Positions 2,355-57,298 of a stretch of DNA of 64,000 nt are shown here, one piece after another (the first letter of the stretch is position 1; each line of letters opens with the position of its first letter). The notes below the pieces were generated by a model. It saw only the letters and a program-made list of their open reading frames with translations, was not told where the DNA came from and did not search any database. The translations under genes were made by a program, and so were the position numbers. This DNA comes from a virus, in the IMG/VR virus record IMGVR_UViG_3300020380_000001, positions 124,001 through 188,000 of that record. One strand, written 5' to 3'.

Positions 2355-3617
2355 ATGACCGAAATCAAATTGTCAGATATTTCAATCGGGTTTATTGGCC
2401 TTGGCAAGTTAGGCTTACCGTGCGCTGAAGTATTTGCCCAGCATCATCCAGTTTATGGCTATGACGTAGTTGACTATAAATCAGCAACAATAAACAAGTG
2501 CGAAGACATTGAAACCGTAGTTAAGCAGAGTGACTATGTCTTTATCGCAGTACCAACACCGCATGCGCCCGGCTACGGCGGCGAAACACCGACTAGCCAC
2601 CTCAAACCAACTGACTTTGATTACAGCATTGTTGACAACGTAATTAAGGAAGCTGTCAAATATACAGCTGGTACTGATACTGTATTAGTACTCATTTCTA
2701 CTGTATTGCCTGGCACTATCAGTGAACGTTGGCAAGACGATTTAAAGGGTACTACTTTCATTTACAACCCGTACTTGATTGCCATGGGCACAGTGGCACA
2801 TGACATGGTTAATCCTGAAATGATTATGATAGGCACAGCTGACGGTGAAACAACCGAACAAGCTGAAGTCCTTGCTGCTATGTACAAGAACATGGCTGAA
2901 GTAGATAACCTGCGCATTGAATACGGTACTCATACTGAGATAGAAGCACTAAAGGTGTTCTACAATACGTGGATCACAATGAAAGTCACTCTTTGTAATA
3001 TGGTACAAGACGTGGCTAACGCTGCCGGCAACATGAATGTTGACGTAGTAACTGGTGCTCTAGCACGTTCTGATTTGCGCATTATGTCAGACAAGTATAT
3101 GACAGCTGGTATGGGCGATGGTGGCGGATGTCACCCTAGAGACAATATTGCACTAAGCCAAATGTCATCCAAGTACAACCTCGGTTACGATATGTTTGGC
3201 GCACTAATTAAAGCACGTGAAGAACAAGCGCGTAATATGGCTGAGTTTCTCATGCAATATGATATGCCTGTCGTAATTGTTGGTAAAGCGTACAAGCCAG
3301 CCGTGCCTTATTGCGAAGGTTCACCGTCACTGTTAGTGGGCCACTATCTGGAAGAAAAGGGTACTGAGCTGTATTACATAGACAGCTTAGCAAGCAGAAC
3401 ACAACCTAAGAACTTTCTCAATAAGAAGGTTGTTTACTTACTTGCACACTCGTACGACGTGACGTATCACAAACAAAAGGCCGCAACAGAAGACTCTGCC
3501 CAAGTGCTGTATATATCACCGGGATCAGTTGTAGTTGATCCTTGGCGCAAATTCAAGTCAATTGACGATCGCGTAACAGTAGTTCACTATGGAGACACTC
3601 GTGGCAAATCACTATGA
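2355..3617 (+). CDS. Nucleotide-sugar dehydrogenase (UDP-glucose/GDP-mannose dehydrogenase family)
   Basis: 420 residues, close to the usual family size. This family oxidises the sugar C6 alcohol to a carboxylate with two NAD+. The N-terminus has the Rossmann signature IGFIGLGKLGLP. FIAVPTPHAP and STVLPGTISE match the conserved cofactor-side loops. The catalytic cysteine motif is GGGCHPRDN with Cys259, matching the family GGxCxPKD pattern. Residues 313-420 fit the sugar-binding C-terminal domain. It overlaps the start of a glycosyltransferase-like gene, suggesting joint work on a glycan, for instance host surface or virion glycosylation. Which sugar nucleotide is used cannot be read from sequence. 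Confidence 0.9.
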   Translation: MTEIKLSDISIGFIGLGKLGLPCAEVFAQHHPVYGYDVVDYKSATINKCEDIETVVKQSDYVFIAVPTPHAPGYGGETPTSHLKPTDFDYSIVDNVIKEAVKYTAGTDTVLVLISTVLPGTISERWQDDLKGTTFIYNPYLIAMGTVAHDMVNPEMIMIGTADGETTEQAEVLAAMYKNMAEVDNLRIEYGTHTEIEALKVFYNTWITMKVTLCNMVQDVANAAGNMNVDVVTGALARSDLRIMSDKYMTAGMGDGGGCHPRDNIALSQMSSKYNLGYDMFGALIKAREEQARNMAEFLMQYDMPVVIVGKAYKPAVPYCEGSPSLLVGHYLEEKGTELYYIDSLASRTQPKNFLNKKVVYLLAHSYDVTYHKQKAATEDSAQVLYISPGSVVVDPWRKFKSIDDRVTVVHYGDTRGKSL

Positions 3618-7080: not shown

Positions 7081-7375
7081 GTATTACCCCCACAATAATA
7101 ATAGCTCTACGGATCATAGCAGAGCCCGCAAGCTTGCTGAATGTCGCGTGTTTCTCTGTATCAATAGACTCGCGCATATCGGCAGCGATGTTATGTGGCC
7201 TAAAGTTAGGGAACAACATCAAGTCAATACCGTAGCCCAAGACCGCTGCTATCGACACAAGTGATAATTTATAAAGAACTAAAGGTACTTTGACCGGGCT
7301 TAGTAATCCTATGGTTACTAATAATAGTAAAGTTACGACGATGAAAGTTATCCGTCCTTGGTAAACTGGTCTCAT
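7058..7375 (-). CDS. Putative holin
   Basis: 105 residues from ATG 7375, chosen because AAAGGAG lies just upstream; the longer frame to 7414 has no ribosome site. Three hydrophobic segments (about 9-27, 34-52 and 88-105) and the pattern LYKLSLVSIAAVLGYGIDLMLFP...IRRAIIIVGVILGVSLG match a holin family common in Pseudomonas-type prophages and phages. Holins permeabilise the inner membrane to trigger lysis. Its place directly upstream of the endolysin supports this. Confidence 0.8.
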   Translation of the reverse strand: MRPVYQGRITFIVVTLLLLVTIGLLSPVKVPLVLYKLSLVSIAAVLGYGIDLMLFPNFRPHNIAADMRESIDTEKHATFSKLAGSAMIRRAIIIVGVILGVSLGI

Positions 7376-20397: not shown

Positions 20398-22137
20398 ATG
20401 AGTAGAGAAAATCACGATTTGAGTGCCGAGTTTGATGAGCAGAATTACGCGGTCTACTTGCCCGCGTTATCTGGCTTTTATACTCAGTCACTTGCTAAGG
20501 TTAAAGACAAACCTGAAACCATGCGTAAAGACGGTCCGCCTAAGGGATTCGAATACGGCTTTGAAGGCTTAGACTTCTTGAGAAAAGAAGACAATTACTT
20601 TAGGTACCGTTATGCGCTATACTCTGCAGGTCACGCGCAACTGGACTTAGAAAAAGCTAACGCTGACTCACCTATGGTGCACGAACGTCCAGACGATACT
20701 ATTATTGTTGGCGACTCGGGCGGGTTCCAGCTTGCAACTGGTGTAATTAAAATGAACTGGGAAAATGCAAAGTCTGCAAATGACCCAGAGCGCGAAAAGT
20801 TGTGTGAGAAAATCCTGCGTTGGCTAGAGCATACTGCTGACTGGTCAATGACACTGGATGTGCCAGCCCTAGCGGCAGCGCCACCACTAAACAAAAAGAC
20901 TGGTTTAACAAGTTTCCAAGATACATTAGATATTACTCTTCTGAATCTTGATTACTTTATGAAGAACCGTGTGCCTGGTGCGACTAAGTTCTTGAACGTG
21001 CTTTCTGGCTCCACACAAACCGATCTTAAGCGTTGGTATGACGCGGTAATAAAGTACTCAGATCCCGAGCAGGTAAAGGCTATGGGCTATACAGAAGACC
21101 GTACGCTGGAAGGCTTTGCTTACGCCGGTATTAACGCACTTAATATTGGATCTGCGCTTGAGACAACGTGTCGACTAATAGACGACGGCATGCTTAAAGA
21201 GTGTGAGTGGATTCACATACTAGGCATCGGGCGTACTGACTACGCGTGTTATATCAACTCACTGCAACGTGAACTGAATAAACACCACGCGCCTAAACTT
21301 AAGATTAGTTACGATGCGGCAAGTCCGTTTGTATCTACTGCATATGGCCAGTTTTACGGTGACGGCACGTACACCAAACACCGCATTGGTTACAACATGG
21401 GCAAGGCGCCAGACGACAAGCGCTTAGCGTTCTGTGAAGATCGCATGCCGTGGAACAACCCTATTATGAACCGCTGTCGTATTAATGACATTTGTGTTCG
21501 TAAGCCTGCGTATGCTGAGGTCAACGGTGAACTACTATTCCCGCGCCAAAGCAAGTTTAAAGACAAGAAGAAAGCTGAAGCTGAAAACGAAGTGTTCCTT
21601 GCTGAGTTTGAAGATCAGATTAATGACTTGCGCGAAGCAGGGGTAGAAGCAACGTTTTATCCGCCAGAGCTTAATCGCCAGGATAAAGAAACACGTACTT
21701 CTTGGGATATTGGTTCTTACATGATTATGATGGGTCACAACGTGTGGACACACATTGACTCAGTAACACAAGCGATCCGCTTAGGTAAGCTTGAAGCACA
21801 TAATTATCGTGATGTGTCGTGGCGCGACTGGATGCCAGGCAAGGGCAAGAGTTCAACTAACGCTTTTGCCGAATACGTGCCTGGATCAGTTATCTACTTT
21901 GATAGCTTATGTCGTGACTTGTTTGACCCAGCGCGTACTAGTGAAGAACGTATGCAAATTCTTAAAGAAGCGCAACCGTTCCTGAACACCATTAACGCAC
22001 GTAACTTGGGATCAGGCAACGTGTTCGATAGCTTATTCGATATAGGCGACGAAGGCGCTACTGACCCTGAAAGCTCTTACGCTAGTCTGGATGACGAAAA
22101 GATGGTAAATCTGGAACAGAATCAAGACGATTTGTAA
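20398..22137 (+). CDS. dpdA: DpdA-like 7-deazaguanine DNA transglycosylase
   Basis: 579 residues. TIIVGDSGGFQLATG carries the DSGGFQ active-site motif of the tRNA-guanine transglycosylase superfamily (D106). KISYDAASP gives a candidate nucleophile (D306). The length and divergence from bacterial Tgt, and the QueE gene 110 nt downstream, fit the phage DpdA group that swaps guanine in DNA for a 7-deazaguanine such as preQ0. This protects phage DNA from restriction. A terminator at 22152 ends its transcript. Confidence 0.82.
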   Translation: MSRENHDLSAEFDEQNYAVYLPALSGFYTQSLAKVKDKPETMRKDGPPKGFEYGFEGLDFLRKEDNYFRYRYALYSAGHAQLDLEKANADSPMVHERPDDTIIVGDSGGFQLATGVIKMNWENAKSANDPEREKLCEKILRWLEHTADWSMTLDVPALAAAPPLNKKTGLTSFQDTLDITLLNLDYFMKNRVPGATKFLNVLSGSTQTDLKRWYDAVIKYSDPEQVKAMGYTEDRTLEGFAYAGINALNIGSALETTCRLIDDGMLKECEWIHILGIGRTDYACYINSLQRELNKHHAPKLKISYDAASPFVSTAYGQFYGDGTYTKHRIGYNMGKAPDDKRLAFCEDRMPWNNPIMNRCRINDICVRKPAYAEVNGELLFPRQSKFKDKKKAEAENEVFLAEFEDQINDLREAGVEATFYPPELNRQDKETRTSWDIGSYMIMMGHNVWTHIDSVTQAIRLGKLEAHNYRDVSWRDWMPGKGKSSTNAFAEYVPGSVIYFDSLCRDLFDPARTSEERMQILKEAQPFLNTINARNLGSGNVFDSLFDIGDEGATDPESSYASLDDEKMVNLEQNQDDL

Positions 22138-22151
22138 GATTAAAACATTTT

Positions 22152-22179
22152 AAAAAAGCGCCAAACAGGCGCTTTTTTT
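22152..22179 (+). terminator. Rho-independent terminator
   Basis: An 11-bp stem (AAAAAAGCGCC, loop AAACA) followed by a T-run, 15 nt after the dpdA-like stop. Confidence 0.9.
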
Positions 22180-22180
22180 G

Positions 22181-22208
22181 TTGCAATTTTTGGTAGTTCT
22201 GCTATACT
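22181..22208 (+). promoter_or_regulatory. Sigma70-like promoter of queE
   Basis: TTGCAA (22181-22186), 16 nt, TATACT (22203-22208), 39 nt before the queE ATG and directly after the terminator. Confidence 0.65.
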
Positions 22209-22246
22209 ACTTAAAACCGTAGAATAAAAATTATAAGGTTGTGTAA

Positions 22247-23152
22247 ATGTCTAAAGAATATAGATATACTGAGATTTTTAGAAGTTTGCAGGGTGAAGGC
22301 ATGTACACCGGCGTTAACACCGCTTGGCTACGTTTCTTTATGTGTAACTTGGAGTGCCGTGGTTTTGGACAACCAGAGCCAGCTAATCCAGAGTCTTACT
22401 ACCCTGTGGGCCAGACTATTGATATTACTGATATCACTAGCTTAGATGATGTGCCGGTACACGAGTACGGCTGTGATAGTGCGTACTCTGTTGCCAAACA
22501 GTACAGAAACCTTGCTATGAAAGGTACTGCTGCTGAAATTGCAGACAAAATAACTGCGATGCTGGCTAACGACTTTAATCCGGATGGGTTGTTTTTAAAT
22601 CCGCATACAGGATTAGATACGCATATGGCATTCACTGGTGGTGAGCCCATGATGCAACAACCAGCTATGATTGACATTATGGAAGAGTTTAATCACAGAA
22701 GCAACCCTATCCGTTACATGACTATTGAGACAAATGGCACACGTAACTTAGATGGGAAGTTTGGGTCTTATATTGCGGAGCAACTTCTCTGTTCAGAATT
22801 ACAAGAAGTGTTCTGGTCAATTAGTCCTAAACTAAAGCACGTATCGGGCGAGGATCCTAAGAAAGCGATCAAGCCAGCAGTGTTGGCAGCTTACGCAGAT
22901 ACGTACGATCACGGACAGTTAAAGTTCGTGTTAAACAACGATCCCACAGCATGGCGTGAACTGCATTTGGCAATTAAAAAGTTCCGTGATGTTGGTGTTG
23001 ATTGGCCAGTATACATTATGCCGGTTGGTGGTCTTAAAGAAGACCAAGAATGTGACGCAACACGTAGAGTAGTTGAACGCGCATTATATGAAGGGTTCCA
23101 TGTAAGTGGGCGCTTGCACGCGCACATCTTTGGTAACGAACACAACACGTAA
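22247..23152 (+). CDS. queE: 7-carboxy-7-deazaguanine synthase QueE (radical SAM)
   Basis: 301 residues. EIFRSLQGEGMYTG is the QueE N-terminal motif. CNLEC gives Cys33 and Cys37; the third cluster cysteine is probably Cys76 in GCDSAYSV. TGGEPMMQQ and IETNGT are the SAM and substrate motifs. QueE converts 6-carboxy-tetrahydropterin to CDG in the preQ0 pathway. With DpdA it supplies the base put into phage DNA; QueD, FolE and QueC are not visible here and may come from the host or elsewhere in the genome. The cysteine spacing C-x3-C-x38-C is unusual compared with the common CX3CX2C. Confidence 0.88.
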   Translation: MSKEYRYTEIFRSLQGEGMYTGVNTAWLRFFMCNLECRGFGQPEPANPESYYPVGQTIDITDITSLDDVPVHEYGCDSAYSVAKQYRNLAMKGTAAEIADKITAMLANDFNPDGLFLNPHTGLDTHMAFTGGEPMMQQPAMIDIMEEFNHRSNPIRYMTIETNGTRNLDGKFGSYIAEQLLCSELQEVFWSISPKLKHVSGEDPKKAIKPAVLAAYADTYDHGQLKFVLNNDPTAWRELHLAIKKFRDVGVDWPVYIMPVGGLKEDQECDATRRVVERALYEGFHVSGRLHAHIFGNEHNT

Positions 23153-45326: not shown

Positions 45327-45447
45327 TGGAGAGTAAGGAATCGAACCAAATCCGCCGGCTTGGGTTTAATGAAAACTTGCTGTTAGAATACTAATACAGT
45401 ATTCGTTTCATTCGGGGCCGGAGTGCAACCATTACACTTCATCTCCA
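45327..45447 (-). tRNA. Degenerate tRNA-like gene carrying the shared insert (copy B)
   Basis: Acceptor 5' TGGAGAT pairs six of seven with CTCTCCA. The D arm is AGTG-TAATGGTTG-CACT. The anticodon stem CCGGC/GCCGG is intact, and the T loop is TTCGATT in a stem with two U-U mismatches. No CCA is encoded. The anticodon loop is opened by an insert: the core at 45378-45404 is identical over 27 nt to the tRNA-Ile insert at 50296-50322, but the outer arms differ (45368-45376 with 45405-45412). Removing it does not give a normal loop (no U33), so the isotype is not called. It may be a pseudogene or a working unusual RNA. Confidence 0.55.
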
Positions 45448-50238: not shown

Positions 50239-50359
50239 TGGTAGGGAGTGCAGGACTCGAACCTGCGACCAACGGCTTATCAGGCAAAAAGGATATGCTG
50301 TTAGAATACTAATACAGTATTCATTTTTACGTTGCTCTACCCAACTGAGCTAACTCCCT
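50239..50359 (-). tRNA. tRNA-Ile(GAT) interrupted by a 44-nt structured insert (copy A)
   Basis: Reads as tRNA up to position 29, then a 44-nt insert (plus-strand 50286-50329), then the rest. With the insert removed every stem is perfect: acceptor AGGGAGT/ACTCCCT, D arm GCTC/GAGC, anticodon arm ACGGC-CTGATAA-GCCGT, T arm GCAGG-TTCGAGT-CCTGC, A73 and CCA. The junction in the anticodon stem is unique. The insert has an outer AAAAA/TTTTT arm and a 7-bp hairpin GAATACT-GTATT-AGTATTC, then CTAACAGCA. It is far too short for a group I or II intron. Whether it is removed or tolerated as an extra arm is not known. Confidence 0.85.
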
Positions 50360-55754: not shown

Positions 55755-55946
55755 TCACGCAAGTGTTATGACGTTACCTTTACGGACTGCTAGGCCTTCG
55801 TCCAAAACACGATGCACCCAGCGTATTGCTGTTTTTTCAGTGCAACCAAACTTCGCGCTAACTAGGCCACGTACTTGCCAGTCAAAAGCCGCAAACTCGG
55901 TTTCTGACAAAAACTTCGCTACAGCTTGTGGATTAAATTTAGCCAT
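55755..55946 (-). CDS. Small winged-helix-like DNA-binding protein
   Basis: 63 residues from ATG 55946, with CAAGGTG upstream; the longer frame to 56054 has no ribosome site. WQVRGLVSAKFGCTEKTAIRWVHRVLDEGLAVRKGNVITL reads as a helix-turn-helix plus wing. Probably a regulator. Promoter 32 nt upstream. Confidence 0.68.
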   Translation of the reverse strand: MAKFNPQAVAKFLSETEFAAFDWQVRGLVSAKFGCTEKTAIRWVHRVLDEGLAVRKGNVITLA

Positions 55947-55977
55947 TTTGACACCTTGTGTTGTTAAGTTCACATAC

Positions 55978-56005
55978 ATTATAGCAAGGCGAATATCAAA
56001 CACAA
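55978..56005 (-). promoter_or_regulatory. Sigma70-like promoter
   Basis: Minus-strand TTGTGT (56005-56000), 16 nt, TATAAT (55983-55978), before the winged-helix-like gene. Confidence 0.5.
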
Positions 56006-56017
56006 GGCCTGTTTGGA

Positions 56018-56257
56018 TTATTTCTTCTGCATATATTTGTATATCGCAGCGCACTTGCCGAGCACTTCTTCTATTTGGTTATCGAGTTCAACCAAAGCGC
56101 GATCAAGGTTAGGGTCTGCAAGGTCGGGCATGTCGTTTTCAAGCTTTTGTTTGGCCGCTTTGATAGACATGTAGGCGTTTCGAATTGGCGCGGTGGCCTT
56201 GGTTACTGCTGTCGTAGTGTTTGGTGACGAGCGTTCAGTAATACTGCTAATTTTCAT
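56018..56257 (-). CDS. Hypothetical helical protein
   Basis: 79 residues from ATG 56257 with GGAG upstream and a TAAATA element at 56282. Thr/Ala-rich N-terminus, then helical (KAAKQKLENDMPDLADPNLD). Unknown. Confidence 0.68.
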   Translation of the reverse strand: MKISSITERSSPNTTTAVTKATAPIRNAYMSIKAAKQKLENDMPDLADPNLDRALVELDNQIEEVLGKCAAIYKYMQKK

Positions 56258-56281
56258 GGGGTACTCCAATCTTATGTGCAG

Positions 56282-56287
56282 TATTTA
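56282..56287 (-). promoter_or_regulatory. Late-type promoter element TAAATA
   Basis: Context GGGCTAAATACT on the minus strand, 25 nt before the start at 56257. Confidence 0.5.
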
Positions 56288-56301
56288 GCCCCCGGCTCGT
56301 A

Positions 56302-56484
56302 TTACCAGACAAATCGCACGCCAGGCACAAGGGTAGGCTCTAGCGCGTCAGTGTCATCATTTGCATCTTGTTCAGCGGCAGTGATATAAGCGTCAACCAC
56401 CTCTAAGTCAACGCCGTTGCCTAGCATTTCAATTGCTAGAGTATCAAGAGCTTCTTGCTTTGTTTTGAATTTACGTTCTTTCAT
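56302..56484 (-). CDS. 60-residue hypothetical protein
   Basis: Start ATG 56484 with GAAAGGTG 8 nt upstream; a GTG at 56493 overlaps that site. Contains FKTKQEALDTLAIEML, like the acidic gene at 55329. Unknown. Confidence 0.65.
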   Translation of the reverse strand: MKERKFKTKQEALDTLAIEMLGNGVDLEVVDAYITAAEQDANDDTDALEPTLVPGVRFVW

Positions 56485-56517
56485 AATCTTCACCTTTCTT
56501 TTTTAGTTACGTGAAGA

Positions 56518-56545
56518 ATATAACACCTATCAAACAGGCAATCAA
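56518..56545 (-). promoter_or_regulatory. Sigma70-like promoter
   Basis: Minus-strand TTGATT (56545-56540), 16 nt, TTATAT (56523-56518), 34 nt before the start at 56484. Confidence 0.5.
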
Positions 56546-56552
56546 GATGATT

Positions 56553-56993
56553 TTAAAAATAATAAGACTCGTCGTCTTCGCGATAGTTTTTAAGACCAGG
56601 AAGTATTTTGCCGTCGTTATAGTTCTCAGTGATTTCCTTTTTATGACCCATAGCACCAGCACAATAGAAACTATCATCAACACATAATAGGAAATTGTTA
56701 AGGAAGAACGGCTTCAGCACACGGTCACCGTTGTGCCACTGCTGAGTTTCAATGTACCCGGCGCTTTCAAGGTGACTGCGCAGTGTCTGGAATGCAGGGT
56801 GGTAGTCAAATGACACGGTTCCGAATGATGCTTGTTTTGAATCATAATACTTTATGCCAGAAAAGACATCACACAAGTATTCCGGCTTAATGAAATAATA
56901 AGGCGGACAGTCTAAATCAAGCTCAAGCTGATAATATACGCCCTGACTTACAGCAATATCGTGAATTAAACCTATTGAGACGGCGCCGAACAT
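56553..56993 (-). CDS. Hypothetical protein
   Basis: 146 residues, aromatic-rich (YYFIKPEYLCDVFSGIKYYD). Overlaps the upstream gene by 22 nt. Unknown. Confidence 0.72.
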   Translation of the reverse strand: MFGAVSIGLIHDIAVSQGVYYQLELDLDCPPYYFIKPEYLCDVFSGIKYYDSKQASFGTVSFDYHPAFQTLRSHLESAGYIETQQWHNGDRVLKPFFLNNFLLCVDDSFYCAGAMGHKKEITENYNDGKILPGLKNYREDDESYYF

Positions 56994-57298
56994 TCTTCTA
57001 CCCCGGATACTAAATCTAGCATTGCAGCAAGGAACCTTTCAACATCACACAAGTGCCACATATTGATATCGACATTTGCGGTGTACATGTTCTGTCCTGC
57101 GAATACCCATTTCTCAGACACCATGTTGTCTATTTTGCTTATGTTTTGTTTATTGGTTGTAACTGAAAGCGAGCCACTAGACGTGACGTTTATGATAACA
57201 GAGTTTTCGTACAAACGAGATATTACAGTTTCGCCCTGTGGGTCAGGATAAAAGAATTCTCCCAGATAAATAGGACGGATGAGGTTTGCTACGAGCAT
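56972..57298 (-). CDS. Hypothetical protein
   Basis: 108 residues, beta-rich. Ends with a cysteine near SGVEECSAPSQ. First gene of a pair with the next. Unknown. Confidence 0.7.
   Translation of the reverse strand: MLVANLIRPIYLGEFFYPDPQGETVISRLYENSVIINVTSSGSLSVTTNKQNISKIDNMVSEKWVFAGQNMYTANVDINMWHLCDVERFLAAMLDLVSGVEECSAPSQ

Follow-up and report, generated by a model that had tools for sequence, protein, structure and literature searches.

What does a 44-nt insert do in the anticodon stem of an otherwise complete phage tRNA gene? The gene in question lies on the minus strand (50359-50239) of the 64,000-nt stretch of DNA analysed here, hereafter the window, which belongs to a virus record of 306.5 kb. 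The comparison of this locus with its relatives in other phages led us to the view that the 44 extra bases very probably serve as a docking hairpin, rather than being an intron, and that the protein docking there is a relative of the RNA-handling protein Ro60 encoded by the virus itself. Ro60 proteins bind Y RNAs, and in YrlA a Ro-binding stem made from the ends of the RNA is combined with a tRNA-like domain (PMC8394870).

The interrupted gene and a second copy in the window

The 5' tRNA half (50330-50359) reads AGGGAGT TA GCTC..GAGC A ACG, comprising the acceptor 5' strand, the D arm and positions 26-29, and ends at an RCG junction. After the 44 inserted bases (50286-50329), which separate tRNA positions 29 and 30, the 3' half (50239-50285) continues as GC CTGATAA GCCGT TGGTC GCAGG TTCGAGT CCTGC ACTCCCT A CCA, providing positions 30-31, the anticodon loop CUGAUAA (GAU), the 3' stem, the T arm, the acceptor 3' strand, A73 and an encoded CCA. 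All tRNA arms are complete, matching the tRNA-like effector domain of YrlA. The initial annotation described the gene without 50286-50329 as a flawless tRNA-Ile(GAU) with encoded CCA, and rightly so: solely the exact removal of these bases, with the cut after position 29, restores a 5-bp anticodon stem and U33. Neither ARAGORN in its default setting (introns off) nor the Rfam tRNA model at gathering threshold detected the gene, and the intron mode of ARAGORN returned it as tRNA-Ile(gat) with a 44-nt insert.

The insert forms a predicted Ro60-binding module of the Y-RNA type, made of a strand a, a closing loop and a strand b. Strand a (50316-50329) starts with an A-rich lead, TAAAAAT, followed by the helix strand GAATACT, and free-standing Y RNAs end in the same strand. 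The loop GTATT and the second helix strand AGTATTC (50304-50315) follow, the latter forming 7 covarying pairs with strand a. Strand b then continues (50286-50303) with the conserved single-stranded motif UAACAGCAU and a U-rich stretch. The gene scores 111 bits with our covariance model R1, being itself among the 39 sequences from which the model was built. With 38 other sequences of like architecture and covarying hairpin in this family, the alignment indicates that the window insert is neither chance nor decay.

In a sister phage (contig L002), the orthologue of window positions 50242-50359 (7249-7366) has UGU (Thr) as its anticodon where the window gene has GAU (Ile), and shows a single further change in the tRNA body. 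Decoding specificity is therefore not conserved between the two, and this single case seems to fit a mimic better than a decoder.

The window contains a second insert-bearing tRNA-like gene, overlooked by the initial annotation, with the module in its anticodon arm (45327-45446, minus strand; R1 38 bits; orthologue at 12178-12297 of L002). Its tRNA body is unrelated to that of the first gene and simple joining of the halves gives no U33, but 27 nt of its module (45378-45404, minus strand) are identical to the module core at 50322-50296. Two adjacent tRNAs of cyanophage BUCT-ZZ01 likewise share a nearly identical insert. From such like inserts in different tRNA genes, the module appears to have been copied between genes.

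Two other features of this phage touch on tRNA biology. ARAGORN reports a tRNA with anticodon TTA, which reads the UAA stop codon, outside the window at record positions 189501-189597 (L319 19501-19597, minus strand). At 20398-23152 (plus strand) of the window, adjacent open reading frames resemble, as judged by eye from their translations, a relative of tRNA-guanine transglycosylase with a DSGGFQ motif and a radical-SAM protein of the QueE type, and may belong to a 7-deazaguanine pathway.

Two families of insert-bearing tRNAs

The BLAST matches in BUCT-ZZ01 and Vibrio phage 6E35.1a already bore the same type of insert, and a general search pattern allowing a tRNA about 30-60 additional bases matched at least 120 IMG/VR loci, many of them insert tRNAs. 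Among the matches listed, 72 genes have halves that join perfectly; about 50 of these belong to the family of the window gene (family A), about 17 to a second family (family B) and a few to neither. In family A, the insert enters at 28^29 or 29^30 with an RCG/UA junction, the slash marking the joint. A lead of 5-19 nt, mostly A-rich, precedes a 6-7 bp hairpin whose short loop usually begins with G; then come 2-4 nt, CNGCA(A/U), 8-20 nt and the 3' half, the consensus beyond the lead and the covarying hairpin being UNACNGCAAU. In the 39 aligned sequences, two-sided changes occur at 7 of 7 hairpin pairs and 89% of cells are paired. The acceptor, D, T and anticodon arms covary too, yet they were criteria for selecting these sequences.

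Family A modules sit in tRNAs with many different anticodons. Among unselected candidates bearing the core, the halves join perfectly in 60% of cases, compared with 19% after exchange of the 3' halves between genes (200 shuffles, at most 32%), and by this measure both halves of an insert gene belong together. The joint itself is distinctive, CG preceding it in 41 of 49 insert tRNAs and at the same place in 71 of 333 intronless tRNAs (p=2e-17). Insert tRNAs at some loci (L049, L101, L119, L276, L277, L323) retain a complete 5' anticodon stem, and there the joined loop seems to lack U33.

Isolates with family A inserts include Vibrio phages KVP40, nt-1 and 6E35.1a, Aeromonas phage Aeh1 and cyanophages BUCT-ZZ01 and B23; the inserts are also present in contigs labelled as bacterial MAGs. 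R1 matched five insert-bearing tRNA genes of KVP40 (NC_005083; positions in L322: 1572-1691, 1959-2081, 2200-2312, 2323-2443 and 3997-4109) and three of Aeh1 (L323, within 2852-3236). Three of the KVP40 genes are annotated as pseudo-tRNAs, scoring 73-92 bits, and two are unannotated; one of the Aeh1 genes is annotated as tRNA-Val. The tRNA-Asn of nt-1, whose insert measures 41 nt, is orthologous to KVP40 tRNA-Pseudo-3 (NC_005083 179301-179416). The initial annotation had named plainly decayed relatives as what would speak against the locus, and relatives across many phages instead keep the hairpin and both tRNA halves.

Family B inserts occupy the same joint, measure 50-75 nt and mostly end in GUUACUU (L010, L023, L033, L043, L116, L250, L254, L263, L266, L269 and L271).

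A Ro60-like protein as probable partner

To find what the carriers have in common, we compared all proteins of ten fetched phage genomes or contigs, nine of them insert-bearing; the tenth, phiTY18, was included on account of a split BLAST hit. A family of proteins about 500 aa long was recovered from 10/10 genomes with one query or more and from 9/10 with most queries, the next best family reaching 4/10. It corresponds to Pfam DUF2828 plus DUF7788, a vWA-like domain, and to phrog_850, 'RNA-binding protein'. DUF2828 occurs in 42 of 47 family A records; with the tRNA-bearing controls pooled, it is found in 44/50 insert-positive and 10/28 insert-negative records (p=4e-6). In many records 22-700 nt separate the gene from an insert tRNA, and in most small genomes it stands inside the tRNA cluster near the insert tRNAs. 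In one record (G051) the sole tRNA found is an insert tRNA, 359 nt from the DUF2828 gene. The phage of the window has its DUF2828 gene outside the window, at record positions 55838-57274, about 117 kb from the tRNA, a distance that speaks against our reading. Neither a DUF2828 nor a TROVE gene was detected in three large insert-bearing records (G002, G013 and G092), which likewise counts against it.

An AlphaFold model of the protein, computed from an 18-sequence alignment (mean pLDDT 84), has Ro60/TROVE structures as all of its ten best PDB matches, with TM scores up to 0.62, among them the Ro60 of Thermus phage phiLo. A DxSGSM motif is invariant in the DUF2828 plus DUF7788 proteins. By its modelled HEAT-like ring and vWA/MIDAS fold, the partner protein falls within the Ro60 superfamily. 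Family B points the same way by tracking the TROVE branch of this superfamily: true TROVE-family genes are present in 10/21 family B records and in 0/18 controls (p=6e-4). In the literature, TROVE proteins of jumbo phages have been placed among RNA-repair functions (PMC7824862), and in Listeria phage CKA15 strongly transcribed regions near an Rsr homologue have been proposed to be Y RNAs (PMC12282133).

Free-standing and permuted relatives

In phages of other lineages, we examined the sequence surrounding Ro-like genes for strands resembling those of the insert. Small elements, built as helix-UNACAGCAAU ... AAAA(U/C)-helix-(U/A)G, were found in Listeria LP-048, mycobacteriophage Winky, FelixO1, Campylobacter CPX, Enterococcus VRE9_2, Bacillus PJN02 and others. 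A strict version of the pattern gave 9 matches near Ro-like genes, in LP-048, Winky, FelixO1, Campylobacter CPX and Enterococcus VRE9_2, all on the strand of the gene, against 0.25 expected from a Markov control. The likeness of motif is partly circular because the search used the insert's own motif; the position, the strand and the shuffled control escape that circularity. An Rfam search gave no Y-RNA match. The window's own phage has candidate free-standing Y RNAs outside the window, at about 197533-198183 of the record (minus strand).

The family A insert consists of the strands of these free-standing Y-type RNAs in swapped order, and the same two strands pair as terminal helix in free-standing and YrlA-type RNAs beside Ro60-like genes (LP-048, FelixO1, Winky). 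Forms intermediate between the two are present in Winky, Enterococcus EA1 and about 20 loci, where the strands flank a circularly permuted tRNA made of the 3' half, a short linker and the 5' half; its joint coincides in position with that of the insert tRNAs and mostly again reads RCG/UA. A single RNA design is therefore found in two topologies, of which the window gene, as its sequence reads, is the unpermuted one. In phiTY18 (L326 1980-2120), insert-like tRNA fragments are ordered like the permuted form, and the phage encodes a distant DUF2828 protein.

YrlA, a tRNA mimic bound by Rsr via its basal stem (PMC8394870), is the nearest known RNA. It shares with the window RNA a tRNA-like body (D, T and acceptor arms), a Ro60-binding helix, predicted in the window RNA, in the place of the anticodon stem and genes located by a Ro60-family gene. 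In the insert genes, the helix strands are the same as those of Y-type RNAs by Ro60-like genes and a Ro60/TROVE-family gene is co-encoded. The window RNA differs in being unpermuted, with a loop-closed helix, an acceptor end left open with encoded CCA and a complete anticodon stem-loop including U33, whereas the helix of YrlA arises from the 5' and 3' ends of a permuted RNA with no free CCA. According to the YrlA structure paper, such a free end is reportedly absent from YrlA. With its unpermuted order and encoded CCA, the window RNA is therefore a topological variant and not a YrlA. The free-standing RNAs of mycobacteriophages, Listeria P100-like phages and FelixO1 have the same strand a/b motif and the same Ro60-like family, but in them the helix arises by pairing of the two ends of a small RNA, and most have no tRNA body. 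In our literature search, whose scope did not extend to the primary YrlA papers, the unpermuted topology was not found reported.

Docking arm, intron or relic

The conserved module, its strand identity with Y-type RNAs, the co-occurrence and adjacency with the partner gene and the Ro60 fold are computed results; together with family B, the module, the DUF2828 link and the fold make a Ro60-binding Y-RNA arm the best reading of the insert. If the insert is such a docking hairpin, the gene product is a tRNA fused to a Y RNA, and we consider it likely that the gene encodes this tRNA/Y-RNA hybrid with the insert as predicted docking arm. The tRNA body would keep all its arms and a free CCA end, and the insert at 29^30 would fold into the Ro60-binding helix from strand a, AAAA(U/C)-helix-UG, and strand b, helix-UNACNGCAAU. 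The arm may then recruit the phage's own Ro60-like ring protein (DUF2828 plus vWA-like domain), the tRNA part serving as mimic or effector domain as in YrlA, with unpermuted strands. Binding, retention of the arm and its task during infection are inferred; by analogy, the arm is most likely retained rather than excised. In Deinococcus, a Y RNA tethers Rsr to PNPase (PMC7790460), and a retained arm could similarly tether the Ro60 ring to a tRNA-binding factor, either a nuclease such as PNPase or a repair enzyme. Alternatively, the hybrid RNA may act as a decoy against tRNA-cutting host defences, YrlA having been suggested as a competitive inhibitor of anticodon nuclease (PMC7790460). The initial annotation had offered an extra arm or a decoy: the arm is favoured by the evidence, as one that recruits the Ro60-like protein, and the decoy stands as a proposed task.

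Against the hybrid stands the perfect tRNA form that is kept by the anticodon loop and by the stem halves on either side of the insert. Why a pure tether should need this is not obvious, and it is this fit of the exons that leaves room for excision to a working tRNA. The 44 nt would then be a removable intron, the halves being ligated at 29^30 into a functional tRNA-Ile with the Ro60-like protein as chaperone or maturase. Perfect stems and U33 upon joining with many different anticodons, as well as the excess of CG at the joint, agree with such an intron, and ligation at the same joint would mend the permuted forms too. We nevertheless regard it as unlikely: about 40% of cases, including the window's 45327-45446 copy, yield no perfect arm with U33 on joining, and in the published description of YrlA the Ro-binding stem remains part of the acting RNA (PMC8394870). 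A phage-encoded RNA ligase or RtcB partner was rejected, as none is common to the 48 carriers (RtcB 7/48, T4-type Rnl1 4/48, Rnl2-like 19/48). The initial suggestion of a new class of removable RNA insert is thus not supported here, the insert fitting a Ro60-binding Y-RNA module and the carriers sharing no splicing enzyme. In a combined version, which seems distinctly unlikely to us, splicing would be assisted by Ro60: the module would be both docking site and intron, the ring would hold the halves, and permuted forms would mature at the same joint. Ro60 proteins are not known to act as nucleases or ligases.

That different tRNA genes of a single phage can share the same core, as in the window pair and the adjacent tRNAs of BUCT-ZZ01, could also suggest a selfish element, a tiny self-splicing intron with a new ribozyme spreading among phage tRNA genes. 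One hairpin and about eight conserved bases, between flanks that vary in length and do not pair, make this very improbable, and it leaves the tight link with the Ro60-like gene unexplained. Hardly any more credit can be given to a decaying pseudogene with a chance insertion, although database annotation has such genes as tRNA-Pseudo or tRNA-OTHER in KVP40 and 6E35.1a; compensatory hairpin changes across diverse phages contradict it, and the insert recurs at the same joint.

Known tRNA introns offer further comparisons. Archaeal, eukaryotic and bacterial group I introns likewise interrupt tRNA genes near the anticodon, and archaeal ones can sit at 29/30. Family A differs from all of these in having neither a common ligase nor a group I core, and in the association of its conserved hairpin with a Ro60-like gene. 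Rfam gave no match to a group I intron in the window or its relatives, the insert being 44 nt long, nor one that would place the insert in another known RNA family, and a comparison confined to the precursor folds showed no bulge-helix-bulge common to them. The initial statement that known phage tRNA introns are all of group I was incomplete, given the 'enigmatic' tRNA introns of Lak megaphages reported in 2019 (Devoto 2019, PMC6784885), the one report retrieved by a literature search on short phage tRNA introns. Those are also phage tRNA-gene inserts described as introns of unknown mechanism, but in the Lak-A1 stretch analysed with ARAGORN they lie in the anticodon loop and measure 93-114 nt; this position, and the lack of a high-scoring R1 match there, led us to reject identity with them. 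Other ideas were also abandoned. An AAAAA/UUUUU flank helix holding the splice sites is not conserved, L093 and L231 being A-rich on both sides; the CNGC motif is unchanged when the CG exon end, its supposed pairing partner, changes; and short-arm tRNAs with Ser, Leu or Tyr anticodons are just modestly over-represented, which does not make anticodon swapping a main theme.

Concluding remarks

In many phages, tRNA genes thus have a predicted arm for the docking of Ro60, and the two insert families track the DUF2828 and TROVE branches of the Ro60 superfamily. Default-mode tRNA finders often miss or mislabel these tRNAs, so inventories of phage tRNAs are incomplete. Laboratory phages are concerned as well, since KVP40, nt-1, Aeh1 and cyanophage BUCT-ZZ01 bear such genes, now unannotated or labelled pseudo-tRNAs. 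The roles of Ro60 and Y RNAs in bacteria are largely open and their presence in phages has been little studied. The hybrid RNAs predicted here would link phage tRNA arrays to a pathway of RNA quality control or tRNA defence.
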